From positions 1 to 29,041 of the IMG/VR virus record IMGVR_UViG_3300027917_000141: a stretch of DNA of 29,041 nucleotides; one strand, written 5' to 3'. The position numbers and the translations under genes were made by a program. The notes under the pieces are model-generated. The model had not been told where the DNA came from. It ran no database searches and worked only from the letters and a program-made list of their open reading frames with translations. Of the stretch, positions 4,978-22,136 are shown piece by piece (positions within the stretch are counted from its first letter, which is position 1; the number at the start of each line of letters is the position of its first letter). Origin of the DNA: a virus.

Positions 4978-5179
4978 TGATCATATGCTCATGTAGTTTC
5001 TCTAAAACCTTATCAACCTTACCATCTACTTTATCTATCTTTTCTTCCATACGTTCCATTTGATGTTGCATGTGATTTGTTATATGAACTTCTACTTCTC
5101 TGATATGTTTATATAGTTTCCATGACAAACCAAGAACTGTGGCCATAACAGAAACCAAACCAATAATAGTAATAGTCAT
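4952..5179 (-). CDS. Small membrane-anchored coiled-coil protein, 75 residues
   Basis: The start at 5179 is chosen because ATG overlaps the TAA of the upstream gene (TAATG). A longer frame from 5227 lacks such support. Residues 3-23 are hydrophobic (a single membrane span), and residues 25-66 are a charged heptad-like helix with HMQHQMERMEEKIDKVDGKV and VDKVLEKLHEHM. One N-terminal anchor plus a coiled coil suits a spanin- or haemolysin-XhlA-like lysis accessory, or a membrane-linked tail factor. No lipoprotein signal is present. Its place between two tail genes, not beside the holin-like gene, leaves both options open. Confidence 0.65.
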   Translation of the reverse strand: MTITIIGLVSVMATVLGLSWKLYKHIREVEVHITNHMQHQMERMEEKIDKVDGKVDKVLEKLHEHMINGTSNHSK

Positions 5180-5604
5180 TAACCGCCCCCTCGTGAACCG
5201 GAGGCATCTGGAAAAAATGATCTCCACAGGTTTGCCCCAGACAGTCTTCTACCAAAGTTTGCTTGTTTTTCTTTTATATAAAAATCCAACCCACCAGTGC
5301 CAGAGGTATAAGTGTAGCGCACCCTAATAAACGGTGATTTAATGTTTATGAATTGCAGGGTATCTGTGCTAGCAGCACCGGCAACAGAAATGCCTGAACA
5401 TTGATAACCATCAATATCATTGTGTTGTACAGTTTTCCAATTTGTACGATTCCATGATTCCTGAAGCGTAATAGTACCATACCCATCACCTGTCCAAACA
5501 AACTGAACAGCAACGAAGTTGTACTGAAGCCTATAAGCATTAGAAGTTTGGTTTTGGTTTAATACAAAATATCCGTCTGTACTATCTGCTATTTGTGTTG
5601 CCAT
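5179..5604 (-). CDS. Small beta-rich virion protein, third paralogue, 141 residues
   Basis: The protein shares its layout with the two proteins at 9701-10051 and 10055-10411: an N-terminal DGYFVLNQNQTS segment, a central GTITLQESWNRTNW, and a C-terminal strand pair RVRYTYTSGTGGLDFYI. It also has a 25-residue Gly/Ser/Arg-rich tail not seen in the others. In marine and environmental phages similar sandwich proteins ('GtlklqaSnD...W', 'vvytstsGtGtLnvyi') are annotated as structural or tail-associated. Decoration or fibre assembly is likely but unproven. Its AAGGTG ribosome-binding site precedes ATG at normal spacing, and its stop overlaps the next start. Confidence 0.65.
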   Translation of the reverse strand: MATQIADSTDGYFVLNQNQTSNAYRLQYNFVAVQFVWTGDGYGTITLQESWNRTNWKTVQHNDIDGYQCSGISVAGAASTDTLQFINIKSPFIRVRYTYTSGTGGLDFYIKEKQANFGRRLSGANLWRSFFPDASGSRGGG

Positions 5605-5636
5605 TAATCACCTTTTAGAAAAGGGGCACAGAACCC

Positions 5637-6008
5637 TTATGTGTTAACTGTCCTTTGCACCCTTATTTCTGCCTCAGCGTCTTCTCCGCCCACTATCAAA
5701 TAACTATTCCCTTTAAAGTTTTCCAATGATTTAAGGGTTTTCCACACTCCTATATCTACACATATAACACCATGAGCCCTGGCATCTTTAACATATGAAA
5801 GCAACAAATCAAAAATGTTAATTGAGCCTCCAGGTTTTACCATTACATCTACTAAATCAAAAACTCTAATATCCCAACAGTTATCAAATATTTCATCAGA
5901 AAATGATGATACTATAAGTTCCCACACATCATCTGTAACGGCTATCTCCACATATTCGGACATATTATAATTTACATACGATACAATTAAATCTGATATA
6001 TTAAGCAT
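5637..6008 (-). CDS. Hypothetical protein, 123 residues
   Basis: The ATG at 6008 overlaps the preceding TAA (TAATG), so it is probably translated by coupling. The product is acidic with alternating hydrophobic residues (EYVEIAVTDDVWELIVSSF; SYLIVGGEDAEAEIRV), giving a mostly beta or alpha/beta profile and no membrane span. NISDLIVSYVNYNMS and NIFDLLLSYVKDAR resemble each other, which hints at an internal duplication of about 60 residues. It contains no Asp-Gly-Tyr motif, unlike its neighbours. I do not recognise the family; its location suggests a tail-cluster accessory such as a fibre-assembly factor. Confidence 0.6.
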   Translation of the reverse strand: MLNISDLIVSYVNYNMSEYVEIAVTDDVWELIVSSFSDEIFDNCWDIRVFDLVDVMVKPGGSINIFDLLLSYVKDARAHGVICVDIGVWKTLKSLENFKGNSYLIVGGEDAEAEIRVQRTVNT

Positions 6009-6235
6009 TAGTATCCGTCCCCGTAGGCATCCATTGCATACCCATAAAAAGAATGGATTGGATCACCATTGTCATTTTTAAGCGCATCTGGTAAATCAGC
6101 AACATACCTATAATATCCGTCGTTTATTAAAACCACCTCATCCTCTTCTAATAGGATAGATGAGTACCATTTTCCATCACTTCCTAAAACCGCCTTTTTC
6201 TCATCAATTTTATATGGTAAAAATATATGTTTCAT
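6008..6235 (-). CDS. Hypothetical protein, 75 residues, Tyr/Asp-rich end
   Basis: The start at 6235 follows GAGGATGA, and the stop overlaps the next start (TAATG). The product has a beta-like profile (KAVLGSDGKWYSSILLEEDE) and ends in YAMDAYGDGY, two Asp-x-Tyr motifs side by side. No family is recognised. Its position just after the largest fibre-type gene suggests a fibre accessory or tip protein, but no function can be assigned. Confidence 0.55.
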   Translation of the reverse strand: MKHIFLPYKIDEKKAVLGSDGKWYSSILLEEDEVVLINDGYYRYVADLPDALKNDNGDPIHSFYGYAMDAYGDGY

Positions 6236-6244
6236 TTCATCCTC

Positions 6245-9200
6245 TTATGGTAGATTATATCCATCGTAAAAAGTAACGTCACCAATTATCCCAGAAGAGT
6301 TATTGGCGCCATCAACATCGGCATTTATATCTAACACATCAATTCCAGATGACATAATTCCAGAGTCATCTGTGCCATCGGCAACTCCATTTACATATAG
6401 TGAAGATTGGTTGTTTCTTAAGATGGTTCTGATTTCATGCTCATAACCATCATTAACATCATCGTCACCCGTAATCAGTATTGTGTTTACCCCTCCCTCA
6501 AACACATCGACTTCAGCAAAGTTACCATCTGTGTTTTTCGTAGCTGCCATATCACTTCCAGCGTCTCCATCACTAATGGTAACCATATATCCATCAGCTT
6601 TGTTATATCCATCTGGACTCATAAAATCGTGAACCATAGTTACATAACCATCTGGCAATTTGGAAGATATGTCATATGATAATGTATCGGCAGTTCTTGT
6701 CGTCGTGGAGCCTCTTGAAATAATCGGTGAAGAGGGCAGGCCATTTGTTCTTGCCTCTAGTTGTGGACACCACACATAACAACACAACTCGCTTGCCCCT
6801 TGCCAGTCATCATCGCCATCAGCATTAGCGGCATGTATTTCTATATTTTTACTTTCAGCCGCATTAGAGGTCCATGTAAAATATGCTCTCCACCAATCAT
6901 CACCTTTCTTTTGTATTCCATACCCATCCACGTTAGAGGTGGCACCAACAAAACCAGTGTTCATATTAAAATAGGCTTCTGGTGCATTTGATGTTGCGGC
7001 GAATTTCATTTTTATCCAGTTTTTGGCACTTGCTTTTCCAAATACAGACAAAACATAACGAGTAGCATCTGCTACTGTTGCTTCCAAATATGTATAGTGC
7101 GTAGAGTCATTTGTGTCTGCTGTTAAACTTGTTGCTCTATTTGTAGCGCTTTCGGAATGGTTAATTGTTTGGGCGTAAGGAGCCTCTCCCGCTTGAGCTA
7201 ACGTGATGTTACTTTCTGTCCAATTTCCATCAAGCTCTTCGGCATAAGTAACCAAGTTTTCACACTCTTCCTCTACACAGACTCCATATGAGTCAGTCTC
7301 ATCTCCCTGAAGCGCCCTACACACCCTTATCCATCTTGGACCCACTTCAAAATATTTCGAAGCACCATCCATGGTTTTTTCCAACACAGCATCAGAGGTC
7401 CTTGTTCCAGTATTTGCATATCCGTCAGCAGGACTATATGTAGAATCAGGAGCAGTTCCAATCAACAAAGCAAATCTCTCTTTAGCTATTACAAGAGCCT
7501 CTGCCACGCCATCAGCACCAGCCTGCATCCAACCAGGATGCTTCCATATACGAACTGTGGCTATATATGAGGAGTCTTGAACTGCCCCATCTTGTGATCT
7601 GGCTCCAATTGCAAAATAAGCATCTGGGTTTGTGATGGAGGCAGAGCAACTTGATAAATCTCCAGTTGCTACAGTTGAACCATTTTCTATTTGTGTATAA
7701 CAATTGGTACTAGCCTCATCGCGGTTGACAAACATCATTACATGCCGCCAAGTATAAGGGCCGCTTGATGTTCCTGCGTTTGCGGCCGCAGGACCAGTAT
7801 CTAACTGTAATTTTATACGGCCATCAGGACCATAACACTCTGCCTCCCAACCCTGACCGCTATTGGCATTAGCTCTTCTTCCAAATGGATAGCCATAAGA
7901 TGCTTGCCCTTTTTCTTTTTTATATACAAATTCTATAACAAAATCATCAGTCCCAAGATCGCCGGCAGTATAATCATCAGCAACATATATCCACTTGTTT
8001 GAAGCATCGCCGCCATAAAATCTCACAGATTCGTGGCTATCTAATCCTGGGTAGCCCTGTCCGGTAGTTGGTTTCGTGCCCCCACTACCAAACTCCAAAA
8101 GAGTTAAATTGGGACCATAACTGTCAGTAGGCGTCCAAGTAGGATCCCCAGCATTTACACCATCATAACATATTTCCGGCCACTCGCTGTTACTGTTCAT
8201 GGTTAGTTTTAATGGTAGTTGCGAAATACCACCAACATTAAAAGGAACCCTATAAACTATGTCGCCGTAATCTATAACATCAAAAGTCCATTGTTCAGTA
8301 AAACTGTTTCCACAATAATCATCAGCATATGCATCTACAGTAACAGTTGCAAGTGCATCAAAGTTATCTGTTTTATCTAGACAAATGTGCCAGCCGCCAG
8401 AGATCTCATAAGCATCAGAGTTGCTTCCATCATATGGAGATACAAAAGTATTAACTGCACCCTTAAATGCCCAAACACCATCGACATAAGCATCTATATC
8501 TTCTCGCCCAACACCATAATCATCTACAACATCGAAGTGTATCAAATAACTCTGATGGTTTTCATCCGTGTTCCCACCAGGGTAATATCCATCGAGCCAA
8601 GGCTCGGTGGAATCTATGGACACAGTTTTTCTTTCTCCCATTTGGTTTCCACATGCATCTTGAGCATATGCATCCACATATCCTGAAGAAAAACTATTAT
8701 CATTCTGTAGTATATGTACTCTGTAACCATCTGTTATGGCAGAAATGGCACCAGTGTATGTTCCTTGGAACGATCCCTGATAAACAGCAAGCGTACCGTC
8801 TAGATAAGCATCAATTGTATCTTCCCTAACTGCGTTCTCTGTGTCTGTAACATCAAAATAGAACGATACATTGTCACAATGGACCCCAGAACTTGGATGA
8901 TATCCATCGATTGATGGAGCAGTATAGTCTATATTAAATGTCCACTGATCCCATAAATCATTATCATAACTGTCCATAGCATAAGCATCGACCGTAACCG
9001 GAGAGGAGGCATAGGTACTAATGTTATCTATGACTACAGTATAACCGTCTGCATCGCCAACACTTGTGGCAGTTATAGAACTTGATGCTCCGTCATAAGC
9101 ATCAGCAAAGACACCCTTTCTAACTGCCCAATAACCATCAACATAAGCATCAATGGAATCTTCTTTTACATAGTTGCAGTCATCTAATACATCGAAAGAT

Positions 9201-9697
9201 ATTAAAACATCTGGGCATGAGTAACCAGACGCAGGAGAGGTATCTGCTAAATATGGGGCGGTAGTATCTACTGTAAAACTCCAAGAATCACTAACACTAT
9301 TTCCATAAGCATCGTCTGCAGCAATTTCTACAGTGATCTCGCCAGAGTAAGAAGAGGTTGCGTCTATTGTGATTCTGTAACCATCATACTCACCAACACT
9401 TAGTGGTGCTATAGAACTCCCAGCACCGTCATAACCTGTTTTAAACGACGTGCCGTCATATGCCCAATCACCATCGACATAGGCGTCAATGGTATCTTGA
9501 GCAATAAGACTATCGTCTACAATATCTATTACAATATTAACATCTGGATCTGCACATAGAATTCCATCAGCAGGTTTGTTATAATTAACAAACGGTGCCA
9601 GATATTCTACGTAAGCATCTGCAACAGCCCATTGATTTGGATAAATCCAGACATTATTACCTGGGTTTTTAAGTGTTAGTTTCGCATAAAATGGCAT
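6245..9697 (-). CDS. Giant tail/fibre protein with four Ig-like repeats, LamG-like and carbohydrate-binding-like domains, 1150 residues
   Basis: Residues about 33-475 hold four Ig-like repeats of 105-113 residues, each with (T/S)IDAY(V/L)DG or the variant DIDAYVDG, then a DGYR/DGYT or GGWH strand, a V(D)AYAxD strand and W(T/S)F. Residues about 545-720 look like a concanavalin/LamG-type sandwich (ESVRFYG; VIEFVYKKE; TYIATVRIW-like strands). Residues 785-1000 match a phage carbohydrate-binding-like module (ENLVTYAEELDGNW; AYFNMNTGFVG; GDDWWRAYFTW; PQLEARTNG; TRTADTLS). The end, 1005-1150, looks like a second LamG-type fold (HEIRTILRNNQSSLYVNG). The protein probably binds host surface glycans. 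It has the highest load of Asp-(Gly/Ala/Ser)-Tyr: 13, 12 and 3 by my count. Confidence 0.8.
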   Translation of the reverse strand: MPFYAKLTLKNPGNNVWIYPNQWAVADAYVEYLAPFVNYNKPADGILCADPDVNIVIDIVDDSLIAQDTIDAYVDGDWAYDGTSFKTGYDGAGSSIAPLSVGEYDGYRITIDATSSYSGEITVEIAADDAYGNSVSDSWSFTVDTTAPYLADTSPASGYSCPDVLISFDVLDDCNYVKEDSIDAYVDGYWAVRKGVFADAYDGASSSITATSVGDADGYTVVIDNISTYASSPVTVDAYAMDSYDNDLWDQWTFNIDYTAPSIDGYHPSSGVHCDNVSFYFDVTDTENAVREDTIDAYLDGTLAVYQGSFQGTYTGAISAITDGYRVHILQNDNSFSSGYVDAYAQDACGNQMGERKTVSIDSTEPWLDGYYPGGNTDENHQSYLIHFDVVDDYGVGREDIDAYVDGVWAFKGAVNTFVSPYDGSNSDAYEISGGWHICLDKTDNFDALATVTVDAYADDYCGNSFTEQWTFDVIDYGDIVYRVPFNVGGISQLPLKLTMNSNSEWPEICYDGVNAGDPTWTPTDSYGPNLTLLEFGSGGTKPTTGQGYPGLDSHESVRFYGGDASNKWIYVADDYTAGDLGTDDFVIEFVYKKEKGQASYGYPFGRRANANSGQGWEAECYGPDGRIKLQLDTGPAAANAGTSSGPYTWRHVMMFVNRDEASTNCYTQIENGSTVATGDLSSCSASITNPDAYFAIGARSQDGAVQDSSYIATVRIWKHPGWMQAGADGVAEALVIAKERFALLIGTAPDSTYSPADGYANTGTRTSDAVLEKTMDGASKYFEVGPRWIRVCRALQGDETDSYGVCVEEECENLVTYAEELDGNWTESNITLAQAGEAPYAQTINHSESATNRATSLTADTNDSTHYTYLEATVADATRYVLSVFGKASAKNWIKMKFAATSNAPEAYFNMNTGFVGATSNVDGYGIQKKGDDWWRAYFTWTSNAAESKNIEIHAANADGDDDWQGASELCCYVWCPQLEARTNGLPSSPIISRGSTTTRTADTLSYDISSKLPDGYVTMVHDFMSPDGYNKADGYMVTISDGDAGSDMAATKNTDGNFAEVDVFEGGVNTILITGDDDVNDGYEHEIRTILRNNQSSLYVNGVADGTDDSGIMSSGIDVLDINADVDGANNSSGIIGDVTFYDGYNLP

Positions 9698-9700
9698 ATC

Positions 9701-10051
9701 TTAGACCTTCGTATGAATATAGAAATTAAGACCACCTGTTCCAGATGTTCTTACATATCGAACCCTTAGCCACGGCAATGCCGTGTCAGTATCAAACACA
9801 TGATTTACATCAGCACCAGATGTTACATCGTAGCCATCTTGTAAATCGCCATTAACATCCTCGTAATTTAAGTCTACCCAGTTGGACCTATTACAAGACC
9901 CCTGGATTGAGATTTCGCCGACGGCATCCGTATTATCCACGACCACCTGCACAGCACATCGTGCGTGATGTCCGATGCTAATATCGTCAGATGTTTGAGA
10001 TTCATCTAAGGTCATATAGCCATCAAAAGCTTTTAAAATTCTATTACCCAT
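9701..10051 (-). CDS. Small beta-rich virion protein, second paralogue, 116 residues
   Basis: This protein aligns over its length with its neighbour at 10055-10411 (FDGY, QTSDDISIGH against RTSDDIAIGH, TDAVGE against TDAVGT, NRSNWVD against DRTNWVD, RTSGTGGLNFYI against STSGTGGLTYYV) and more loosely with the 141-residue protein at 5179-5604. A strong GGAGCTAATCA site precedes the ATG. The family is a small sandwich common in environmental phages near tail genes. It may be a fibre subunit, tail decoration or adaptor for the giant protein that follows. The tandem copies arose by local duplication. Confidence 0.7.
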   Translation of the reverse strand: MGNRILKAFDGYMTLDESQTSDDISIGHHARCAVQVVVDNTDAVGEISIQGSCNRSNWVDLNYEDVNGDLQDGYDVTSGADVNHVFDTDTALPWLRVRYVRTSGTGGLNFYIHTKV

Positions 10052-10054
10052 TGA

Positions 10055-10411
10055 TTAGCTCCTTTTACCTTTCCACACGTAATATGTAAGACCGCCCGTA
10101 CCTGATGTGGATGTATAGGCTAGCTTGGCCCATGATGAAATAACCGGCGTAGAGAGCAACAGGTTGCTATCCACACTATCTACATCATAACCATCTGTTA
10201 GGGTTTCTGTATCACCATTAACAGCGAAATACCCATCCACCCAGTTTGTTCTGTCATTAGACATTTGTAACTTCAACGTGCCGACGGCATCTGTAATAGT
10301 CATTACTGCCTGCACCGACAAAACATCTGCATGCCCGATAGCAATATCATCGGATGTTCTATCTGCGTTCATTACAAAATATCCATCAAAATCTTCTTGG
10401 ATTTTACTCAT
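10055..10411 (-). CDS. Small beta-rich virion protein, first paralogue, 118 residues
   Basis: The first of two adjacent copies; see the shared motifs SDDIAIGHADVLSVQAVM, GTLKLQMSNDRTNW and TSGTGGLTYYVW. It lies directly downstream of the three large internal-type proteins and starts the fibre cluster. AGGAGAGG precedes the ATG. The pattern (two SDD/IGH strands, a W after SNDRT, and a C-terminal TSGTGGL hairpin) is that of a small beta-sandwich structural protein. The function is inferred only from location and family resemblance. Confidence 0.7.
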   Translation of the reverse strand: MSKIQEDFDGYFVMNADRTSDDIAIGHADVLSVQAVMTITDAVGTLKLQMSNDRTNWVDGYFAVNGDTETLTDGYDVDSVDSNLLLSTPVISSWAKLAYTSTSGTGGLTYYVWKGKRS

Positions 10412-10421
10412 TTAACCTCTC

Positions 10422-12368
10422 CTATGATAGAGTTTTATTTACCTGTTGCATCGGGGTTTGTACCGGCTTGATGTTCAGTTTTGACTTACTCCCAGATGCC
10501 GCTTTATTATATGATTCCTGTATTTTAAGTGTTAATTTGCTATCTTTTTTACCAAGCAGTTTTTCAAAATACTTCTTGGTTTTATGGTCAAGTTTTTCTT
10601 CACGCAATGCGCGAGCCATCTCATCAAGTATTTGTCTATATAAAGGATATTGTAGAGTTTTTAAGACTATTAAATCCTGCTCCGTAACCTTGTGCGCCAG
10701 CAGCCTTAAAATAGATCGCCCAGGGTTTTGAACAGCATTTAACATTTTACTAAAACTCGTCCTGTTACCAGTGGCCGCTTGTTGCAAAAGCATAAGCCGA
10801 TTTTTCTGCATGAGCGCCAGAGCAGCCGCATCATCCTCTGCAATACCAGCGTTTGTATAACCATTAAATGCTGCCTGTTGGTAGCTATTTAAATCAAACC
10901 TTAAAAGGTCATCTTTTATTTTCGCATAATCACTTGAGTTAACTATTGTAATTGCTGTTCCACCAACCATTTTTTTAAACGCACTAACTTCTTTTGTAAA
11001 ACTAGTTCGTGGTTTACCCAACTCTTGCAACAACAGCTTTGTTCTTGGAAAACTTTTGCCAGCCATATGTTCAACGGCACGTGCCGCCACAGATCGCATG
11101 GCTTTTGAGCCGACTGTCAACCTCATAGCCATTGCGCCAATCGCGGCACCTGACAGGTCGCCAGAATACCCATAACCGGCCACACCACCAAGAATAAACC
11201 TGCTCACTCTTTCTTTTGCAACACTTGTAAAAATACTCTCTGTTGTTTCTTTAACGGCAGCAGCAGTACCCTCAATAGATTCGTTGACTAACTTTAGCTC
11301 TTTTGTAAGATCGTCTACATTTTTCCGTGCTAAATCCACGGTGGCTTTTGCTACCGCCTCGCTTTTTATAGCATCGGTGGACTGCCTAAAAGATGTTGCC
11401 GTTTCCTCGCCAAACGCCGCTTTTGTATATAGATCCGCTGTGGATTTTTGTGAGCTAGCCGTAGCTTCTGCAAGTTTCCCTTCAGCAACCGCCAGGTCAT
11501 CACCCAGTGTACCTTTTTTTGAAATTAAAGCATCTCTACTTTTTTGTAGCTGAACTAGCTTCCTTTCTTCTGTTAAAACTTTAGGACCATATTTAACCAA
11601 CGCCCCCTTTCCTGCCCTAAACACGGCTCCTGCCCCCATTAATAAACCAGCAAAAGCTGTGTTTATTGCAACGGACTCAGCCACAGTGCCAACAGAGAAG
11701 GGTTTATCATGTATTATTACGTCTTCGGCAGCTTGGTGAACTCCCATGGCAGCACCCTCGCTGGCAAGCACAGATGCCACCCTAGCTGCCTTTGCGGCTC
11801 TGCTACCTTCAGCAGCTGCCTTTACCGCCGCCGTTGTTATGTCGGCTCCCCTTTTTGCCAGGCCCCTTGCTATAAACTTCTCGGCAGTTAACGCTGCAGC
11901 TTTTGCACCAGCTTTTCCTGCAAGAGACACAGCACCACCCGGCATAACATAACCACCTACCGTTCCAACCAAAGATGCTGTTGGGTTTGCCACCTCAAGA
12001 CCTTTTCTAACTCTTTTATATGCCTCTTCACCTACAACCTTTTTACCTATATAATCACTCAAACCAGCCGTAGTTGCTGACGAAAAAGCAAGCCCTGCCG
12101 CCGTCCAAGGAGACTCTTTATATTCTTTCTCCATTTTATCAGCAACCAGTTTTTGTCGCCGCTGATCGTCATCGGCGGGTATAACTTCCCCTGTAGCCAA
12201 CAGATCTCTTGCCTCGTCTTCTGGTAAAGAAAGAATCTCACCACTCTCATTGATAACTGGCACAGTACCGTTATCATTGATTACATATCTTACAACATCA
12301 GGGTTGCTTTGTGTTTTTACATCCTCTAGTTGCTCTAGCGAGGAAAGATCTTTTTCAGAATCAGCCAT
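10422..12368 (-). CDS. Ejection/internal virion protein with glycine-zipper segments, 648 residues
   Basis: The N-terminal 75 residues are acidic and include VPVINESGEILSLPEDEARD, a motif seen at the start of large phage internal proteins (a value/nonzero 'GEvxsiPaexA' strand pair). From about residue 85 to 245 the chain is rich in Ala, Gly and hydrophobic residues (SLVGTVGGYVMPGGAVSLAG; AVAINTAFAGLLMGAG-like), fit to insert into or cross a membrane. Long charged helices follow (about 260-370), then a second Gly/Ala segment near 390-415 and a basic end. Such proteins are carried inside the head and ejected to open a DNA path into the cell. No Asp-Gly-Tyr motif is present. Its start overlaps the previous stop (TAATG). 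Confidence 0.65.
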   Translation of the reverse strand: MADSEKDLSSLEQLEDVKTQSNPDVVRYVINDNGTVPVINESGEILSLPEDEARDLLATGEVIPADDDQRRQKLVADKMEKEYKESPWTAAGLAFSSATTAGLSDYIGKKVVGEEAYKRVRKGLEVANPTASLVGTVGGYVMPGGAVSLAGKAGAKAAALTAEKFIARGLAKRGADITTAAVKAAAEGSRAAKAARVASVLASEGAAMGVHQAAEDVIIHDKPFSVGTVAESVAINTAFAGLLMGAGAVFRAGKGALVKYGPKVLTEERKLVQLQKSRDALISKKGTLGDDLAVAEGKLAEATASSQKSTADLYTKAAFGEETATSFRQSTDAIKSEAVAKATVDLARKNVDDLTKELKLVNESIEGTAAAVKETTESIFTSVAKERVSRFILGGVAGYGYSGDLSGAAIGAMAMRLTVGSKAMRSVAARAVEHMAGKSFPRTKLLLQELGKPRTSFTKEVSAFKKMVGGTAITIVNSSDYAKIKDDLLRFDLNSYQQAAFNGYTNAGIAEDDAAALALMQKNRLMLLQQAATGNRTSFSKMLNAVQNPGRSILRLLAHKVTEQDLIVLKTLQYPLYRQILDEMARALREEKLDHKTKKYFEKLLGKKDSKLTLKIQESYNKAASGSKSKLNIKPVQTPMQQVNKTLS

Positions 12369-13918
12369 TATTGTACCTTCAGGGGTTTATATCCCCACAT
12401 TTTAGCGTCTCTATTATATCTTCTAGCTACCCTTGTAGCAAGGTCCCTATACTGCTGCGCAGTGGCGTAGTGTCCTCGTGCGTCATGATATCTGGCTCTT
12501 GCTATAAGGTTCGCACGCGTTCTTTGTGTAAAACCGCGAACTATCTCTCTGGCTCCAGCTTTTGTTCTAAAGGTTGTATCAAATCCTTTTTGCACACGCT
12601 TAAACTCTTCTGGTCGCACAGCCACGCCTGACAGCTCTTTTACTTTCTGAACTATATCCTGAACCTGATTTTGCATCCGCGCTCTTGTTTCGCCGCCACC
12701 AACCCAGGCTTTAAGACCGCCCTGCCACCTACCCTCTTGCTCGAACTGTTTAGAAACATCCATAAACCTCTCATAAACGCTATCTAATTCATATGCCGCC
12801 GCCAACCTTTTACTTTCTTCGGCATTTAGCTTCTCACTGGCTGAGGTTTTTGGAGTGGCAAAACGAACATTCTTGCTGCCACTAACAGTTCCAAGCACCT
12901 CTCTCGTGCCCTCTGTTTTGGTTACAGTTTTCTTTTCTGCTTTTAGTGAAGATATTTTTTCATTTAAAGCAAAAATAGAATCAGCAATCATTTTTCTACT
13001 ATTTAAAAGCTGTGTCTTTTTGGCGACAACAGAAAGATTAACCTGAGACCAACGATATGCTGCTTCTGTCTGATTTTTCTGTGCAACATTTAACATATTC
13101 CAAAGCTGGTTCCTTTCCGCTGCTGTAAGCTCAACTTGTCTTAATTTGTTGGAAAAATTCTGCTGCTGTATTTTTATATCCCTATCTATAGCCCTTTCTA
13201 TTGCTGGGGCCAGAGTTGGTTTTGTTTTGTTATATCCAGCAGCGAAACCATCTATTGCCGAAGCAATTATCATCATTACTTTTGAAAAAGACCCCATTCT
13301 ATTAAACAATCTGTCTGGGTCGATATTTATATCACTCAACTCTTTTTTAGCTGCACGCAGCTCCCTTGAAACATTTTGAAAATCCCTATATATAGAATCG
13401 CCTCGTTCACCCCAACGCTCTGCATATTCTTTAAACATATTTTCCCACGTTTTGGCCGACTCCTCAAGACCTTCATATACAGCATTAACTTTTCCCCTTT
13501 GCAAATCATACTCAGCCTTTTGTTCTTTCCCATACCCTTCCATTCTCGCAACATGCTCTGGGTCTGTTGGTGTTATAACAGTTGAGGTTTGACTTGATTC
13601 AAGTTTTTTGACAACTGGTTTTGACCATGAGGAAGAGACACCTGCAAGCGCAGGACCATCGCTGCGCTGTTGTGGGGAACCGGACTTTGTCCCCTTCCTT
13701 AGAACAGTACCGGTCGTCGCTTTCGATACCGGAGTTCCCTTTAATGACTCTAAATAAGCTTTCTCTTTTTCTAGATTTTTATCAAGCTCAATGTGAACCT
13801 CAAAGTCGTCATTTTTAGCCATTGTTTTTTCAAGAGTGGCGATTTTCTTCTCTTGTCTTTCAATATCGGCGCGCTTCAAGGCTTCGTTTTTGGCAATTTG
13901 TTGTTTTCCAGATGCCAT
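12368..13918 (-). CDS. Internal/ejection-type virion protein, coiled-coil, 516 residues
   Basis: The protein is mostly charged helix. Residues 1-65 form a coiled coil (KRADIERQEKKIATLEKTM). A Ser/Thr/Pro-rich linker spans about 65-120, with long helices over 125-210. A conserved-looking hydrophobic stretch (SFSKVMMIIASAIDGFAAGY) is followed by PAIERAIDRDIKIQQQ, a motif I associate with internal proteins of podovirus-like phages. The C-terminus is Arg-rich (REIVRGFTQRTRANLIARAR). Position between the 1122- and 648-residue proteins fits the ejection-protein block that follows the nozzle gene. Overlapping TAATG junctions at both ends suggest fixed stoichiometry. Confidence 0.65.
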   Translation of the reverse strand: MASGKQQIAKNEALKRADIERQEKKIATLEKTMAKNDDFEVHIELDKNLEKEKAYLESLKGTPVSKATTGTVLRKGTKSGSPQQRSDGPALAGVSSSWSKPVVKKLESSQTSTVITPTDPEHVARMEGYGKEQKAEYDLQRGKVNAVYEGLEESAKTWENMFKEYAERWGERGDSIYRDFQNVSRELRAAKKELSDINIDPDRLFNRMGSFSKVMMIIASAIDGFAAGYNKTKPTLAPAIERAIDRDIKIQQQNFSNKLRQVELTAAERNQLWNMLNVAQKNQTEAAYRWSQVNLSVVAKKTQLLNSRKMIADSIFALNEKISSLKAEKKTVTKTEGTREVLGTVSGSKNVRFATPKTSASEKLNAEESKRLAAAYELDSVYERFMDVSKQFEQEGRWQGGLKAWVGGGETRARMQNQVQDIVQKVKELSGVAVRPEEFKRVQKGFDTTFRTKAGAREIVRGFTQRTRANLIARARYHDARGHYATAQQYRDLATRVARRYNRDAKMWGYKPLKVQ

Positions 13919-16900
13919 TACTCACCTCCCTCAACTTTCTTTAGCCGTTCATGAAGATGAGCCAAAGAAGCCATCACAAGTGGATTAAACTTATCTGGTC
14001 TTGTATCAAGCATTTTCATTCCCGTTACAGGATCATTGGTAACCATATCACTACCAAGATCAGATTTCTCTACATCATCTGCATATACTCCGGTACGTGC
14101 GCCGTTGGCGCCCATCATTGAAGCAAATGGTTCTTTATATTTGAATTTTACGGCTTTCATTTTATCAAGGAAATCAAAAACATCTTCTGCTGTCATATTC
14201 TCTTTTGTTTTCTCATCAGAGAAAAACTTATTAGCGGCTGCCATCGAAGAGTTTTTTGGTGGCCCCCAAAGCGATGTAATCCAAGGCCCTGCAGCCTTTG
14301 GGCTCATATATGTAGTTTTTGTTGGCTGCCCAACACCAAGGCCTTTTAATAAGTTTCCAAGACCTTTACCAGCGGCCGTAAGACCACCAACGCTATTCAA
14401 CAAATTGCTTTTTTCCTGTTCGGCTGCAAAAGCACCAGGTGGCTGCTGGAAACTCATCTGATTCATCCCACTAGGACCGACAGGTCCGCCTTCAGCCAAA
14501 GTCATTTGACCTTCAATTTCTGGCATCTGAGCGCTTGGGTCAACACCAACTTTTGCTGCCATTTCTGGCATCTGTGCCTGTATCATTCCTGGTTTTACAC
14601 CCAACCTTGCGCCAAGTGATGGCATTTGTGGTGCTGGAGGTGGCTCAACCCCAGTAAACATCGGAGTCTTTGAAGCCTCTTGAAGCATGTTATATAATGG
14701 CATGTTTCCTGACATTAAAGCATCTTTACACGCCTCGCCAGAAAAAGTCAACCCACCAAGTTTTCCAAGATTTAACCTCTTCTGCTCTTCAACTAACGCC
14801 AACGGCGACGGTTTTATAGGAGCAATAGGTGCCAGAGGAACTGTGGGAGCCTTAGGCATCGTTTGAATCGCCTGCCCTAAGTTCTGTATATTAGAAACAT
14901 TTTTTAATAACGCTGGCGGGACTGTCATTTGCGTATTAATAGCCTGTCCTAAATTTTGAATATTAGATAAATTTTTTAAATATGCTTCTGGAAGTTGGGC
15001 TGGTACACCTTGATTTATAGCACTGGCTAATCCCAGCACATTACTAGCATTCCATGATGGATTCCATCCTGCTGGACTATATTCTTTGGCTTTACTTAGA
15101 TCAACAATTTGGTCTTTTAGACTATCACCATAATATGGTTTGTTGATTTTGTCTAGAAGGTCTTGATCTAGGTTACCAATCCATTTATTACTTGGGTCAC
15201 CACCAATCCATGTACCACCTTTCCAACCCTTTGCTGTGTCGGGAAGATTAATACCACCACCTTCAGTTCCAGCACCCTGATTTTCAAAATGGCTTCTCCA
15301 TTGGTCTAATATGTTTCTACCATATCCTCGTGCCAGATCCATTGCACCCGATTCCTCAGGCGTTGGGTTGTAAGGCTCAGCGCCATATTTCTTTTGAAAC
15401 CAGTCCCAAGATGGATATGGAGATTCTTCTGGCTGATATAAATAACGAGGGTCTCTCATTTTCCATCTATCTGGGCCAACAATATCTGGACCAAGTAGAT
15501 TTTCTCTATTTGTTCTTAATGCTGGTCCTAGTTTATCAGCATCCCATGTCCCAATGTTTCTTGGATTGGTTAAATCCTCTATTTTCTTAATATCTAGGTT
15601 TCCACTTAAACCAGATAACTGGCTTTTACCAGCAAAATCCCTATCAAACTGCCCAGGTTTCATAGATGGAAGATTAAAAGTATCCAATCCTGCAGATGCT
15701 CCACCACCAAAACCAGAGGTTGGAAGTTTTGGCATTGTTGTAAAATCCAATCCTGCAGATGCTCCACCACCACCGACTCCCATTGGGGGTCTAATACCAC
15801 CAGGTCCATCTAATGTTGGGGCTGCTGTTGGAGAAGAAGAAACTCCCATTGGGGGTCTAATACCACCAGGTCCATCTAATGTTGGTGCTGATGTTGGAGC
15901 AGAAGAAATAGCAGGTTTTTGTAGTTCTGGGTTAGTTCCACCAGGTCCTACTCTTTCTGGTGGCGAACCTCCTGAAGAAACAGCAGGTTTTTGTAATTCT
16001 GGATTAATTCCACCAGGTCCTACTATCTCTGGTGGTGCCCCTCCTGAAGAAACAGCAGGTTTTTGTAGTTCTGGATTAATTCCACCGGGTCCCACTATCT
16101 CTGGTGGTGCCCCTCCTGAAGATCCTAAACCACCTTTTGCAGCGGCTTCTAATTGATTATATAAAGCATAATCACCCCTAGCCAAAGCATCTTTGCATGC
16201 TTGACCAGAATAAATCTGATCCTTGGTTCTTTTATCAGAAAATAAACTCATCAATCCACCAGCCAACCCACCAATACCACTGATGACCCCACCCCAGTCA
16301 ACACCTGGCGCATCAATACCATAAATGGCCCTGATGGCATTATCTATAGCAGTCTGTTCCTGTGCGATTAAAAGTTTATATAATTCTTGTTCAGCGGCTG
16401 ATTGAGCATATTTATCACCAAGACCCATCTGTTTGTATTGCATCGCCAACTGCTCTTTTGCTAATTCAAACTGGCGCCACTGTTCTTCTTGTGCCGATTC
16501 TTGATTAAATCTGGCAAGATCTTGTTGCATCATTTGACCAGCCTGCTGAGCATACTGTTGCATTGCTTCCCGTTGTTCTTGAGATCGCGCAATCGATGTT
16601 TGTGCACCAAGATCAGTCATACCTGTACTAAGTGCTTGTGCTGCGGCGCGCGCACGAGCAGGATCAAAAGCACCAGCAGTTTGAGAAGCCATCATTGCTG
16701 CCATTTTTTCTCTTTCTAGGTCTGCTTGGCGGGCAACAATTGAATCTTCACCTTTAGCCAATACGCCCATTTTGTTAAGCATATCTCTTTCATTCTGGCG
16801 GAGAGTTTTCATCTGCTCACGAACCGCTGGAGTCCATCTTTCTTGATTTTGCATGGTGCGGGCTCTAACCACATCTTCTTCCCACGGGCCACTAATACCT

Positions 16901-17286
16901 TGTCTAATTCTCCAAGCGTCTGGATCAATCTGTTGCTGGTGTAGTTTTAAATAACCAGCAAGTTCCACAGCCTTGGCGGCATCCGCTGGTAACGAAATGT
17001 TACCAAGCATATCGCCTACATGGGCGGCAGCGTATTCTTCGGGAGACTGCCCAGCATATTTACCCCACTTTTTACCTTTTTCTATCCATTCATTATATTT
17101 ACTATCTGAAACCCCCAGGTGTGCAAATGGATTGGTCGCAGCAGGAGTATTGTCTTGCTTTTGCCCGGTTTCTTTAGGGTAGTTCTGTTGTAACCAGGTA
17201 TTTAAATCTCCAGGCGAACCAGCATCCTTCCAAGCCTGTTTTGCTGCCTCATAACTAGGATCTTTGTTTCCATATTGATCAACCAT
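13918..17286 (-). CDS. Large virion protein with tandem Pro/Gly repeats and C-terminal S74-type chaperone-like domain, 1122 residues
   Basis: Residues 130-320 are Gln/Ala-rich helices. Residues 326-349 are a Gly-rich hydrophobic stretch (WGGVISGIGGLAGGLMSLF) ending in SDKRTKDQ. Residues 389-460 are three 24-residue Pro/Gly repeats, and 461-504 two 22-residue repeats. Residues 770-808 hold two NLSNIQNLGQAI-type units. The C-terminal about 100 residues start FFSDEKTKENM (Ser1023) and contain DFLDKMKAVKFKYKEP, TGVYADDVEKSDLG and ASLAHLHERLKKVE. This fits the intramolecular chaperone (peptidase S74) type known from endosialidases and phage tail proteins, which cuts itself off before the Ser. The block position, after the nozzle, suggests an ejection or tail-core role; it might also be a tail tip protein. 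Confidence 0.7.
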   Translation of the reverse strand: MVDQYGNKDPSYEAAKQAWKDAGSPGDLNTWLQQNYPKETGQKQDNTPAATNPFAHLGVSDSKYNEWIEKGKKWGKYAGQSPEEYAAAHVGDMLGNISLPADAAKAVELAGYLKLHQQQIDPDAWRIRQGISGPWEEDVVRARTMQNQERWTPAVREQMKTLRQNERDMLNKMGVLAKGEDSIVARQADLEREKMAAMMASQTAGAFDPARARAAAQALSTGMTDLGAQTSIARSQEQREAMQQYAQQAGQMMQQDLARFNQESAQEEQWRQFELAKEQLAMQYKQMGLGDKYAQSAAEQELYKLLIAQEQTAIDNAIRAIYGIDAPGVDWGGVISGIGGLAGGLMSLFSDKRTKDQIYSGQACKDALARGDYALYNQLEAAAKGGLGSSGGAPPEIVGPGGINPELQKPAVSSGGAPPEIVGPGGINPELQKPAVSSGGSPPERVGPGGTNPELQKPAISSAPTSAPTLDGPGGIRPPMGVSSSPTAAPTLDGPGGIRPPMGVGGGGASAGLDFTTMPKLPTSGFGGGASAGLDTFNLPSMKPGQFDRDFAGKSQLSGLSGNLDIKKIEDLTNPRNIGTWDADKLGPALRTNRENLLGPDIVGPDRWKMRDPRYLYQPEESPYPSWDWFQKKYGAEPYNPTPEESGAMDLARGYGRNILDQWRSHFENQGAGTEGGGINLPDTAKGWKGGTWIGGDPSNKWIGNLDQDLLDKINKPYYGDSLKDQIVDLSKAKEYSPAGWNPSWNASNVLGLASAINQGVPAQLPEAYLKNLSNIQNLGQAINTQMTVPPALLKNVSNIQNLGQAIQTMPKAPTVPLAPIAPIKPSPLALVEEQKRLNLGKLGGLTFSGEACKDALMSGNMPLYNMLQEASKTPMFTGVEPPPAPQMPSLGARLGVKPGMIQAQMPEMAAKVGVDPSAQMPEIEGQMTLAEGGPVGPSGMNQMSFQQPPGAFAAEQEKSNLLNSVGGLTAAGKGLGNLLKGLGVGQPTKTTYMSPKAAGPWITSLWGPPKNSSMAAANKFFSDEKTKENMTAEDVFDFLDKMKAVKFKYKEPFASMMGANGARTGVYADDVEKSDLGSDMVTNDPVTGMKMLDTRPDKFNPLVMASLAHLHERLKKVEGGE
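15775..15906 (-). repeat. Two 66-base in-frame tandem repeats
   Basis: They encode residues 461-504 of the 1122-residue protein: two 22-residue units with TLDGPGGIRPPMGV and a Ser/Thr/Pro/Ala lead. DNA identity is high; the plus-strand text CCCATTGGGGGTCTAATACC recurs exactly 66 bases apart. They directly follow the 72-base repeat block and share the GPGGI core with it, so both sets probably come from one ancestral unit. Confidence 0.85.
15907..16122 (-). repeat. Three 72-base in-frame tandem repeats
   Basis: They encode residues 389-460: three 24-residue units of the form SSGGAPPEIVGPGGINPELQ followed by KPAV. The first two are identical in protein; the third differs at four residues (S, R, T, I), which gives a direction of age. 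The product is a Pro/Gly-rich flexible linker. Such units can change number by slippage, so related phages may have other copy numbers. Confidence 0.9.
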
Positions 17287-17288
17287 TT

Positions 17289-20200
17289 TTACGCTCCGTT
17301 AATTGTTTTCCCGTTTTTTACTCTTACAGACTCATTCTCAACTCCCACCAAGAATGCTATAGAATTTAAATCCCAGCCAGCATCTGCTGTACCATCAATA
17401 CCATATTCTTCCACGGAAATTCTAATAGAAGAACACCTTGGATATCGTGGGAATATTTGTAACACATAGTGCTCTCCATCAAATGAAGAAGAGCCGTTTG
17501 TAAAATATTGTGTATGATCAAAAGCAGTTATAGCATCTGAATCAAACGTCTGGACATCAGAATAATAACCATCATAATCGTAGCCAATTCTGACCCTTAG
17601 TTTATGAGCAGATACCTTTTGTCCGATTAAGAAAATACGATATACTCTCTGGTAGCCGCCAATGTTTGAAAAACTAAACCAACCAGAATCAATTCTAGAA
17701 TATACATTTGTAGAATCATCCGTATATGAATCTGTATCTTCTTTCCATAAATATCCCGAAGAATCCAGCCAGTATGTATTATCTTTGATATATGCCGCAG
17801 ATACACACTCTCTGTTGGTCCAAAGGGACCATTTATTTTTGTCCCAATTATATACCAACCCATAGCCATCGGTATAGAATTTTACAAGATTATTAGGGTT
17901 ATCTTTTCCAGTTCCTTTAACAGTTAATGAATCTGTATAATGTACAACTGGATCACCAACTGATGTTAATTGTAAACTATTATCCAACAACCAAATGGCA
18001 TCTGCCGCTTGGAACATTATGCCGTTAGGAACTTGTACAATAGAATGTTTGTTGGCACAACCAATGTTTGGAGAAACCAAATATGGAGAAGTAAAATTAT
18101 TACCTCTGCCCGTAGAGTCCAACCCCTGACCTTCTGTAGCATATATTCTATCATTTTTAAAGATGATAAGTTTATCTAGCAACGCAGCGAGTGCTATGAT
18201 TTTACCACCAGCAGAATCGCATGTAATTAACAAACTATCAGAATATCCTGGACCAGAAACACTGCTAAACTCTTTCGTATAATAGACTCTAGTTTTACTG
18301 TGTTCTCTATCTACATAAAACAACCTGTTTTGGAACACCGTAGCAATTTCACAGTTATATGGCTGCGCATTAGGTAACACGTTGCCAGTAGTATAGATTG
18401 CCTCATTATAGGAAATCTCATCATCACCTATTGAGTCTGTATATGTAACAGTAGATGCTGTGGTATCGTTATCCACTGTTCCGATACGATAGAATCTAGT
18501 TGTTGGGCCAACTTTAGTTCTATAAACAGCAATCTGTACATTTTCTTTTCTAGTAAATGTTAAAGTTGGGCAAACAATAGTAACTTGTTGATTTGGAGAT
18601 GCTGTTGTAACCTCACCAATTTCTGGAGAAGGATAGCTGCGATGACGCACTCCTCTGGAGTCGGTCCATTCATAAACTAATAAATAGTGATATATGCCCT
18701 CTTCTAAACCAGATCCAGAAGATGCTGTTAAAGAAAAAGGCTCAGGATATTGTAGGAACCCTGCCTCGTGGACACGAGAATCATCTAACTCGTATGGACA
18801 AGCATTTGCTATAAACAAACCATCTGGAAGTTCTACAACATTAGGAAAACCAGTTAAATTAGATTTGATTCTCAGCCGTCTAATCTGATATAAATCTTTA
18901 TTATCCAGGCTATTATCATCATAGATCAGATTATTCATTCCTGTTGTGAACTCATAACCGTCATTAATATCATCAACAAGTTGTAGTTGTGGTAATATAT
19001 TATAAGCATCAGGAGTAGAATCTACTCTTGCTGTGCCAACAAATGATTTTCCTACAACATTTTGATCTTTATCCATCCATAATAACTCATCTTGAGTCCC
19101 GTAAGAATATCCCCAGGATTTAGTAAACACACCATAATAATGATGAGTTGTTAAACCCTCTCTGGCTATTTCTGTAGCAAGTTTTGCTCTTTCAAGAATT
19201 TTATTAGGACCAACTTTAGAACCAGTTCCCAGCGTGTTCGTATATGTAGATTTGTTAATATAGGGAATGTTCGTTGAGTTATCATTCCAGCAAATATACA
19301 GATCAGACTTATAATCTGTTTTAGCCACGCCACCCATGGTTAATACATAACCATCAGCAGAATCATTTGTATCTACTGCAATTGGAGAGCCTTTTTGTGT
19401 TAGGTTGTAATCATAATGGCCACAATATACGTTTGTAGTTCCGCCCTCTTCATATTCTGCCAAGATGCCAAAATAGCCGTCTAGATCGTAGTTTTTCTGT
19501 GGAAAAAGAGAAATAGATCTTAAACTTGTGCCGCTGGCTGTCATCCATACAGTTGCCATATTATCATATGTTGTGGAACCACCAGCAAGGTCCAAGAGTA
19601 CTATGCCATATCCATCATTTCTGGGATATGCTAAAATTGTATATGGATTCCATTCATTCTTCCATGCTACAGTTACATCAAACTGAGGTCCTCTATCTTG
19701 GTGTGTTAAATGAGCATCATAAATGGGTCCAGGACCCTCAATTGCTCCTGTTTCTGGATGTATTGCACCACCATAAAACCAACCATTACTTTTTCCATAA
19801 TAAAAACTAATTCTAATATCACCAATTTGTACGATTTTACAGAAAGCAATGTGTGATAACCCAGTTTCACACTCCACAGAATCAAGCCTAATGCCTGTGA
19901 CTTTATCAAATGTTTCAACATATATGCCATAAGAATCATTGTCTACATCATAAGTTGTATAACTTACAGAAATAACATTAACGGATTCTGCCTGGTCACA
20001 ATAATACCACAAATCTTTTCTTGAGTGGCCAACACCGTAGGCGTCTATATCCAAAAACTTAGCAGAGTTATTATATGTTCTGGAATAAAATGCACCACTT
20101 GCATCTGTTGGGGTTGTGGCTATGCTGTCTCCAACAACAATTGGGTTCCCCTGATATGGAGCGACATGGGTGTCAGTAAAAGTTTCATCTGATATGACTT

Positions 20201-20351
20201 TCTCTGAGCCATATCGTTTTGACATTGCCCCTTCGCGATTATACATAGTATCCATTGACCTAACCACACCAGGATTAAGTTTAGGATCTACATCTGTATT
20301 CATTGCCTGAGAGCCCAACGGAATGGAAATTAGTTGTTTTTGTATAGGCAT
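17289..20351 (-). CDS. Nozzle-like tail protein (T7 gp12 / P22 gp10 type role), 1020 residues
   Basis: This is the largest protein of the tail-hub block and follows the adaptor. The N-terminal 400 residues are beta-rich with propeller-like strands. The middle and C-terminal part has a recognisable tail pattern: QNRLFYVDREHSKTRVYYTK, then DSLLITCDSAGGKIIALAAL and DKLIIFKNDRIYATEGQG, then NKHSIVQVPNGIMFQAADAI and WLLDNSLQLTS. This matches the beta-propeller nozzle protein class of short-tailed phages, which closes the tail and guides DNA out. T7 gp12 has about 790 residues, so this one is long. It carries about ten Asp-(Gly/Ala/Ser)-Tyr motifs, mostly in the N-terminal strands. ATG directly follows the upstream stop. 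Confidence 0.75.
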   Translation of the reverse strand: MPIQKQLISIPLGSQAMNTDVDPKLNPGVVRSMDTMYNREGAMSKRYGSEKVISDETFTDTHVAPYQGNPIVVGDSIATTPTDASGAFYSRTYNNSAKFLDIDAYGVGHSRKDLWYYCDQAESVNVISVSYTTYDVDNDSYGIYVETFDKVTGIRLDSVECETGLSHIAFCKIVQIGDIRISFYYGKSNGWFYGGAIHPETGAIEGPGPIYDAHLTHQDRGPQFDVTVAWKNEWNPYTILAYPRNDGYGIVLLDLAGGSTTYDNMATVWMTASGTSLRSISLFPQKNYDLDGYFGILAEYEEGGTTNVYCGHYDYNLTQKGSPIAVDTNDSADGYVLTMGGVAKTDYKSDLYICWNDNSTNIPYINKSTYTNTLGTGSKVGPNKILERAKLATEIAREGLTTHHYYGVFTKSWGYSYGTQDELLWMDKDQNVVGKSFVGTARVDSTPDAYNILPQLQLVDDINDGYEFTTGMNNLIYDDNSLDNKDLYQIRRLRIKSNLTGFPNVVELPDGLFIANACPYELDDSRVHEAGFLQYPEPFSLTASSGSGLEEGIYHYLLVYEWTDSRGVRHRSYPSPEIGEVTTASPNQQVTIVCPTLTFTRKENVQIAVYRTKVGPTTRFYRIGTVDNDTTASTVTYTDSIGDDEISYNEAIYTTGNVLPNAQPYNCEIATVFQNRLFYVDREHSKTRVYYTKEFSSVSGPGYSDSLLITCDSAGGKIIALAALLDKLIIFKNDRIYATEGQGLDSTGRGNNFTSPYLVSPNIGCANKHSIVQVPNGIMFQAADAIWLLDNSLQLTSVGDPVVHYTDSLTVKGTGKDNPNNLVKFYTDGYGLVYNWDKNKWSLWTNRECVSAAYIKDNTYWLDSSGYLWKEDTDSYTDDSTNVYSRIDSGWFSFSNIGGYQRVYRIFLIGQKVSAHKLRVRIGYDYDGYYSDVQTFDSDAITAFDHTQYFTNGSSSFDGEHYVLQIFPRYPRCSSIRISVEEYGIDGTADAGWDLNSIAFLVGVENESVRVKNGKTINGA

Positions 20352-20735
20352 TTATCGCACCCACTCTGTGGTACTAACTGCAACATAAATTTTAGTACCA
20401 TACGCTGTAGTTATCGTATCACTTGTAGAACCATTAATAGTTTGGTTACCACCTGGCTTGATGGTAATGGTATTGGTCGAAGAGGTAGAGTTTACAACTG
20501 TAATCAACTTACCAACATCCTCTCTGCTGATATCTGGAAGAGCAACCGTAAAGCCTTCTTTTGTAGGATCACAAATAACAAGATCTTCTAGTGCAGCATT
20601 ATATCTTTCTGTCTGTATTTCTGTAGGATTGCCAATATAAAATGGCAGGTTTTCTAGTTTATTGATTTCTCTATCCGTAGCATCCATTATCTTTTGTAAA
20701 GATGGATCGGCGGTGGAAATCCTATTTAACGGCAT
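20352..20735 (-). CDS. Small beta-domain tail protein paralogous to the N-terminus of the 690-residue protein, 127 residues
   Basis: The start at 20735 is chosen because the ATG overlaps the adaptor's TAA (TAATG); a GTG two codons earlier is possible. Residues 30-127 align with residues 28-124 of the 690-residue protein: FYIGNPT against FYFGVPT, YNAALEDLVICDP against CNAAYSDLVLCDP, LITVVNSTSSTNTITI against FVTVCNYTSSTNTIVV, and AVSTTEWV against AVKTDLWV. The N-terminal helix also has the NR/RELQN-like pattern. The domain is a beta-sandwich typical of structural proteins. Its place between adaptor and nozzle suggests it sits at the tail hub, perhaps as the docking site for the fibre. Confidence 0.7.
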   Translation of the reverse strand: MPLNRISTADPSLQKIMDATDREINKLENLPFYIGNPTEIQTERYNAALEDLVICDPTKEGFTVALPDISREDVGKLITVVNSTSSTNTITIKPGGNQTINGSTSDTITTAYGTKIYVAVSTTEWVR

Positions 20736-21403
20736 TACCACCCCCAGCCAGGATATTTTTTACTTGATCTTCTATAATCCACAACAGTTTTTGGTTTTCC
20801 AACATCAAGGGCAACACTCTTGAGAATTCTATTTTCTACTTCTTGTTTTTTAGCCAAAAAATATGATGGGTCTTCTTTATCTAGGCCAAGTAGGTCTGCA
20901 CAAACCTGATAAACAATCCACTCATCCCATCCATTAACTGTGTCAATATTTGTAGAGTCATCCCACTCTTCTGCATATGGAACATATTCTATTCTTACTG
21001 TGCCGCTCCATGATGGTGTTGGATGAAACCATATTTTCCCATATTGGATATGATATCTGGTCCATTCTTTTTGTTGGGCGTAGGTATAGTCGTATCTCTC
21101 ATCCCAATTATATCTTTCAAGTATAGAATAACCATCTGGCATATCATTATCTTGTACTGCTACACCCATACACACCTTAAAATCAGATGGCAAATTATAT
21201 GATCTTGTGCTGGCGGTTACTGTTATATCAGCCTGTTTTACATATCTTTCAGGCTCAGCTTCAACAAGCAAATCCCATAAATGTGTCCAAGCACCATCAA
21301 TTAAATCATCAAGATTGGCATTCGTTGGTCTAACCGTAGATGGACGGTCGGCTTTTAATCTTATTTTAGATCTAATATCAGATCTTGTTACTGTCCGAGC
21401 CAT
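20735..21403 (-). CDS. Tail adaptor protein (T7 gp11-like role), 222 residues
   Basis: The N-terminus MARTVTRSDIRSKIRLKAD with later LDDLIDGAWTHLWDLLVEAE is the helical layout of podovirus adaptor proteins (T7 gp11, P22 gp4 role), which ring the portal and hold the nozzle. The middle carries the typical strands SYNLPSDFKVCMGV, RYNWDERY, IWFHPTPSWSGTVRIEYVPY, and the C-terminal half has a helix DEWIVYQVCADLLGLDKEDP. Length is near the usual about 200 residues. A ribosome-binding GAGGT precedes the ATG. The single DGY at the loop before SILERYNW may be a local insertion compared with the family, which I cannot test here. Confidence 0.75.
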   Translation of the reverse strand: MARTVTRSDIRSKIRLKADRPSTVRPTNANLDDLIDGAWTHLWDLLVEAEPERYVKQADITVTASTRSYNLPSDFKVCMGVAVQDNDMPDGYSILERYNWDERYDYTYAQQKEWTRYHIQYGKIWFHPTPSWSGTVRIEYVPYAEEWDDSTNIDTVNGWDEWIVYQVCADLLGLDKEDPSYFLAKKQEVENRILKSVALDVGKPKTVVDYRRSSKKYPGWGW

Positions 21404-21424
21404 AAATTTACCTCACAGCCAAAA

Positions 21425-21640: not shown

Positions 21641-22078
21641 TTAACCCTGTTCACTCGTCTTAAGGAAGAATTGCAGATAAGCAGTCTGATTGATAGGCAG
21701 TTTTTGGGTTCCGCCCTGGAAAAATTGGATCTGCAGATATCCATCTTGATATGCATCTGCCGCACCAACTTCAGAACTTCCACCTAAGAAATCTTGATCT
21801 TTAATTAGAACAACATCATAACCATCGCCATTCTCTGACGCTGTAGTGGTGCCATTAAAACCTACGATATCGAGATAACGATTGGTAAACTCAATACGAT
21901 ATACACCAGTCTTTGCTGCAGCATTTAATTGAGTTACGCCATCAATACCACGAGCCGAATAAGACGAAACCGCCCCACCTACACCAAAGTTAACCTTAGC
22001 AAATACTGCAGTGGTTCCCGGCGCTGTTACATAGAAAAATTGCTTTCTATTTCCAAATTCTACTTTAGTTCCTGACAT
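21641..22078 (-). CDS. Small head or decoration protein candidate, 145 residues
   Basis: Located just after the major capsid gene, with GGAGG before the ATG. The product is beta-rich (KQFFYVTAPGTTAVFAKVNF; YRIEFTNRYLDIVGFNG; LQIQFFQGGTQKLPIN), lacks signal or membrane segments, and has a near neutral, glycine-rich profile. The position after a capsid terminator suggests a decoration or head fibre protein, but no family is recognised. It has DGY twice and DAY once in its C-terminal half; between them lies a stretch that would read smoothly without them. Confidence 0.55.
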   Translation of the reverse strand: MSGTKVEFGNRKQFFYVTAPGTTAVFAKVNFGVGGAVSSYSARGIDGVTQLNAAAKTGVYRIEFTNRYLDIVGFNGTTTASENGDGYDVVLIKDQDFLGGSSEVGAADAYQDGYLQIQFFQGGTQKLPINQTAYLQFFLKTSEQG

Positions 22079-22136
22079 TTTAATACCTCCGAGCCCCTCA
22101 TATTAGAGGATACTATTTAGTTTTTAACTCAAAATT

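Follow-up and report, generated by a model that had tools for sequence, protein, structure and literature searches.

We found that a 1122-aa protein of an uncultured podovirus-like phage ends in a Peptidase_S74 (intramolecular chaperone autocleavage, ICA) domain and carries the motif that opens this domain twice, once next to the domain and once far upstream. As read from the sequences, the C-terminus matches S74, the motif is doubled, the doubling recurs in related phages, and the first copy is conserved beside linkers that have diverged. The explanation we favor, with a probability of about 0.55, is that the first copy was the entry strand of the ancestor and has been retained as an alternative, and that the second copy serves the S74 domain on the first ejection protein. 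The sequence analyzed, hereafter the window, is a stretch of 29,041 nucleotides (positions 1 to 29,041 of IMG/VR record IMGVR_UViG_3300027917_000141).

The coding sequence occupies 13921..17286 on the minus strand (start 17286, stop 13918-13920, 1122 codons) and has homologues in syntenic phages. Directly upstream lies the gene of a 1020-aa protein of tail-tube/stabilization type (17289..20351, minus strand), 31% identical to the syntenic gene of a related locus, L003; its position suggests a tail-tube role, and Pfam and PHROG searches gave no match. Terminase, portal, capsid and adaptor genes lie upstream of this gene, all on the minus strand. On the other side follow genes for proteins of 516 aa (12368..13918, minus strand) and 648 aa (10422..12368, minus strand), by position the second and third ejection proteins, for which Pfam, PHROG and NCBIfam returned no convincing family. 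A tail-tube gene followed by the 1122-aa gene and two more ejection genes is the order of a gp14/gp7-like first ejection protein, and phages phiGT1 and phiM5 are arranged alike. Judged by gene order, a podovirus-like phage here encodes three ejection (internal virion) proteins, of which the 1122-aa protein is the first. T7 gp14 and P22 gp7 are likewise encoded ahead of two further ejection proteins and are helical with a hydrophobic segment, but they measure 181-240 aa, and no S74 domain appears in the portion of the source consulted (PMC8954989). At 1122 aa the window protein falls outside the size of about 180-240 aa given in that portion for such proteins (PMC8954989). Outside S74, PHROG and Pfam gave it no match, known gp14/gp7 families included, so we describe it by position and likeness and do not file it as a member.

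Two further features of the window concern its tail and fiber genes. The tripeptide DGY is strongly over-represented (27 occurrences versus 2.8 in shuffles), as it is in the nearest relative, L005 (13 versus 1.2), the regions involved being 2908-9700, 17292-21412 and 21644-22102 of the window, with tail/fiber-type ORFs, and 9803-17481 of L005. The excess was not seen in L003, L006, L047 or L081; DGY codons vary, and the DGY sites of the tail-tube protein lie at non-matching positions. Near fiber-type genes, three paralogous small proteins (5179-5604, 9701-10051 and 10055-10411) each have a TSGTGGLxFYI-like motif near the end.

All features of the 1122-aa protein described here lie on the minus strand. 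A Gln/Ala-rich helical core (residues 177-306, 16369..16758) is common to homologues with or without S74 (our own profile HMM, E 6.5e-22); a structure model predicts helices at 182-322, the core spanning about 177-322. Behind it, a Gly-rich hydrophobic segment (residues 331-349, 16240..16296, WGGVISGIGGLAGGLMSLF), delimited by hydrophobicity and conservation, is the most hydrophobic 19-residue stretch of the protein and runs into the first S74-entry motif, FSDKRTKDQI (residues 349-358, 16213..16242), with S350 and, at S+5, K355. The first copy of a second repeated module, SGQACKDALARGDYALYNQLEAAAK (residues 360-386, 16129..16209), is a predicted helical hairpin (361-384 in the model, pLDDT 72-82). 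There follow a Pro/Gly-rich linker of in-frame tandem repeats (15776..16122), whose DNA arrays are 72 bp x 3.1 and 66 bp x 2.0, and the second copy of the module, SGEACKDALMSGNMPLYNMLQEASK (residues 849-875, 14662..14742). The second entry motif, FSDEKTKENM (residues 1022-1031, 14194..14223; S1023, and K1028 at S+5), opens the S74 domain (residues 1023-1121, 13924..14220), assigned by PF13884 and the model, in which it closes with a long helix at 1097-1121. A preliminary description of this DNA had already proposed the second motif, the Gly-rich segment and Pro/Gly repeats added between the copies, all of which these data support.

The same description had called the C-terminus S74-like, and a profile search of the last 100 residues, set beforehand as the test of this claim, bore it out. 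PF13884 (Peptidase_S74) matched residues 1023-1074 at 24.9 bits, above the curated cut-off of 22 (E 2.6e-5). The catalytic serine with a lysine five residues on is present as S1023/K1028 and again as S350/K355, a spacing also found in endoNF (S911/K916) and MyRF (S587/K592) (PMC8326128). The model of residues 1010-1122 aligned with the MyRF ICA domain (7dc3_C; Z 4.0, rmsd 4.8, 91 aligned) and the modeled C-terminus with 3gud_A, titled "novel intramolecular chaperon" (Z 3.0). The ICA fold with its C-terminal helix is therefore recognizable, in a match that is weak on its own and consistent with the profile. A PDB sequence search with the C-terminal domain returned only MyRF (E 0.94). The segment starting at S350 had no Pfam match by itself, to S74 or otherwise; among ten first-copy segments from this and related proteins, just that of L077 gave an S74 match, below threshold (E 0.096).

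We then examined the internal repeats. FSD, SGxACKDAL and YNxL each occur twice where the preliminary description had placed them: FSD at 349 and 1022, SGQACKDAL at 360 with YNQL at 376, and SGEACKDAL at 849 with YNML at 865. For the SGxACKDAL pair the local score of 82 greatly exceeds chance, the highest among 2000 shuffles being 49. The FSD pair is modest inside the window protein alone (score 32, equaled in 10 of 2000 shuffles) and, on present sequence comparisons, is strong only once relatives are included. Codons agree at two of five identical residues in the FSD pair and at 7 of 15 in the module, a synonymous divergence indicating old copies whose protein sequence has been retained. The repeats are not colinear: SGQACKDAL follows the first FSD motif immediately, and SGEACKDAL stands 174 residues before FSDEKTK. 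This difference in order led us to reject the duplication of both as one unit. The proposal that a single ancestral unit had been copied finds no support in relatives either: many of them have a doubled SD motif, and the SGxACKDAL module was not found in L005 and L003, the two tested for it. The SGxACKDAL pair is a repeat separate from the SD motif pair.

Relatives came mainly from IMG/VR, where a capsid-protein alignment recovered 80 loci, many of them syntenic. A helical-core profile seeded with the window protein and relatives then gave 36 proteins, about 30 of them distinct, from syntenic uncultured phages; relatives are few, some are near-copies, and some homologues end at contig ends. 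The S74-carrying set comprised 15 proteins, including two, L054 and L078, that fall below the core-profile threshold and occupy the same gene position. Single-sequence IMG/VR scans with the whole protein, the C-terminus or the portal gave no match, a scan with the first-copy segment gave L003, and the tail-tube alignment again gave L003 only. Searching cultured phages by tblastn with the whole protein and pieces of it produced nothing useful, and genome scans by capsid alignment and motif pattern yielded no relatives. Another motif-pattern scan returned mostly a different family, whose large members have a single whole S74 domain or two; it serves here as a side comparison. Three of these large phage proteins (L121:1-2259, L123:840-5390 and L126:2700-6914, minus strand) have two whole S74-like domains per chain, and in L123 and L126 neither domain is C-terminal.

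The C-terminal part of the homologues varies between nothing, S74 and a short module with consensus SPGEIVIPRS; PF13884 was present in 12 of the 22 scanned. In the S74-less L012, L014, L018, L019, L025, L030, L055 and L071, where the gene follows the tail-tube gene, the C-terminus is the other module, of the form GGxxxGxAPYxGDTxxNDxVPAxLSPGEIVIPRS, and L009, ended by a contig end, has S74 and then the start of an SPGEIVIPRS-type module. L071 (6923-9931) also has an insert before the core, with CFIAGTLVTMADGS ... YVVHNGG, that looks Hint/intein-type.

Repetition of the motif proved common among the S74 carriers. At least two SDxxxK motifs (2-5 each) occur in 10 of 15: the window protein, L003, L005, L006, L065, L077, L078, L081, L083 and L084. 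Upstream of the domain-adjacent copy we counted 16 SDxxxK motifs versus 0.85 expected from shuffles, 13 of them with a hydrophobic residue at +8 (0.13 expected). The 17 homologues without S74 contain one SDxxxK in 7131 residues, and this near absence indicates that the motif goes with S74. The first motif always stands at the end of the helical core, which is the site where S74 starts in single-copy relatives, and mostly behind a Gly/Ala-rich hydrophobic stretch. The 659-aa ejection-type protein of L065 (15279-17255) has five SDxxxK motifs, the last of which, SDVRMKRAY, is its very C-terminus. The multi-motif state is dispersed over the capsid tree, with about five changes, at least two of them forced by well-supported branches; several long branches make the number of changes uncertain.

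These patterns suggest how the arrangement may have arisen. The S74 domain would trimerize at the C-terminus and help the chain assemble, and its Ser-Lys pair may cut the domain off. The first SD motif would mark the site where S74 joined the helical core in an ancestor. A linker would later have been inserted, or have grown, between the entry strand and the domain body, partly via tandem duplication, and a second entry motif would now adjoin that body. In the window protein S1023/K1028, where the motif is complete, would most likely be the working entry strand, with S350/K355 retained as an alternative; in some relatives the domain appears to use the first copy. The assembly role, the choice of docking strand and cleavage are all putative steps of this scheme.

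We next compared the first copies with a profile of entry motifs taken from proteins of relatives and cultured phages that have only one, scoring at positions independent of motif finding. All ten first copies matched it (p < 0.05), and the first copy outscored the domain-adjacent copy in seven of nine proteins (Wilcoxon p = 0.08). Position +8 was I or V in 10/10 first copies and 1/9 domain-adjacent copies (p = 1.2e-4, an optimistic value, since L081 and L083 are close kin and all members share ancestry). The difference at +8 favors an explanation that we regard as possible, at perhaps one chance in four: S350 would be the true entry and cleavage strand of a split or dual-site S74 domain, the 670-residue linker would loop out, cutting there would shorten the 1122-aa precursor to 349 aa if it occurs at S350, and a cut at S1023 would free the chaperone only.

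AlphaFold2 models of L083 and the window protein bear on this choice; each covers a monomer, with quality that ranges from moderate to low (mean pLDDT 65.6 and 50.1), and we read secondary-structure strings from them. In the L083 model the first copy (S225) forms a strand at 230-235 with a short helix behind it. A disordered linker leads from there to the second copy (S318), which falls in a helix at 320-326. As no other strand precedes residue 331, the first-copy strand must, in this model, pair with the domain body. Residues 213-427 of the model align with residues 576-697 of the MyRF ICA domain (Z 4.8, 25% identity), placing S225 near the MyRF cleavage serine, 587, given a gap-free alignment of the first stretch. 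The S74-fold matches are all weak (Z 3.0-4.8), and Foldseek alone found no S74 structure, nor anything significant, for the L083 model. We rejected an alignment-register artifact as the source of the L083 result: in the input alignment the single-copy motifs lay over the second copy, so the register favored that copy and the first-copy strand appeared against the bias. In both L081 and L083, moreover, the helix that normally follows the motif sits at the first copy, and the second copy is without such a helix. A split domain would also fit the S74-less homologues of 208 and 259 aa (L047 and L034), which stop behind the Gly-rich segment, and a trimmed length of 349 aa would be nearer to known gp14-like proteins, 181-240 aa (PMC8954989). 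Against it, the second copy of the window protein is complete (motif, helix and strand) and is modeled as the entry strand, at 1028-1034; a 670-residue loop would be very long, and cleavage is putative in every member. The first copy is disordered in the window model, which is little evidence about S350 because its input alignment favored the second copy. The suggestion in the preliminary description that the first copy is an alternate cleavage site may be right.

The other suggestion made there, that the first copy is dead, is unlikely. Residues 326-360 scored 55 against L005 (shuffled maximum 46) and 113 against L003 (shuffled maximum 45), and the core, the Gly-rich segment with the first copy, and the domain are each kept between the window protein and L005 or L003 well above shuffles. 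The 652-residue linker, which grew through in-frame tandem duplication, has no detectable similarity to either (271 and 90 of 1000 shuffles were as good). This conservation beside divergent linkers, I or V at +8 and the strand in the L083 model all speak against a dead first copy; a start motif repeated alike in related phages suggests that the far-off copy still matters. It might still be a functionless remnant of an older S74 domain, left as S74 modules were swapped or duplicated, and C-terminal modules that differ among relatives, the scattered multi-motif state and the chains with two whole S74 domains (L121, L123 and L126), a possible earlier stage, would fit such a history. We think this improbable, at about one chance in six, since a relic should decay like the linker, and the first copy is closer than the second to the canonical motif in seven of nine proteins. 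That the first motif belongs to the hydrophobic segment of these ejection proteins in general and resembles an S74 entry motif by chance is very improbable and was rejected: in most members the motif does stand behind a hydrophobic Gly/Ala segment, but the count of 16 versus 0.85, the near absence of SDxxxK from S74-less homologues and the match to the single-copy profile all argue against it.

Descriptions of S74 domains mostly concern fibers and spikes, in which a single entry strand is fused to the domain. Compared with Peptidase_S74/ICA proteins such as endosialidase F (its C-terminal domain), the GA-1 gp12 neck appendage, the T5 L-shaped fiber and MyRF, the window protein shares the profile match, the S+5 Ser-Lys pair, the long C-terminal helix and the alignment with 7dc3 and 3gud. 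It differs in being an ejection-type protein whose S74 domain follows a helical core and then a disordered linker, not a beta-helical fiber stalk, and in a doubled entry motif with copies about 670 residues apart. Closer counterparts are S74 proteins at the same position in cultured phages: Sulfitobacter phage phiGT1 gp17, Sinorhizobium phage phiM5 gp27, those of Rhizobium phages, and PAE2 gp13. Like the window protein, these have the Gly-rich segment, SDxRxK and S74, and lie between tail-tube and internal virion protein genes; unlike it, they have a single entry motif joined directly to the domain and are mostly 300-470 aa long. For phiM5 gp27, a GenBank note records detection in particles. 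Database annotation already records an S74 domain on the first internal podovirus protein. Searches of literature mainly outside subscription journals turned up no account of repeated entry motifs for S74, of split S74 or of S74 on ejection proteins.

On the reading we favor, a set of uncultured podovirus-like phages has an S74 domain on the first ejection protein, and the entry motifs there are repeated. Should the far copy be the one in use, S74 could exist as a split domain, and the length of the ejected protein could depend on cleavage: the chaperone would reach back to where the helical core ends and, on folding, could trim a long precursor, linker and chaperone being discarded together. 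Use of the far copy would then supply a definite step of processing for proteins of a class that is still poorly understood as to assembly.
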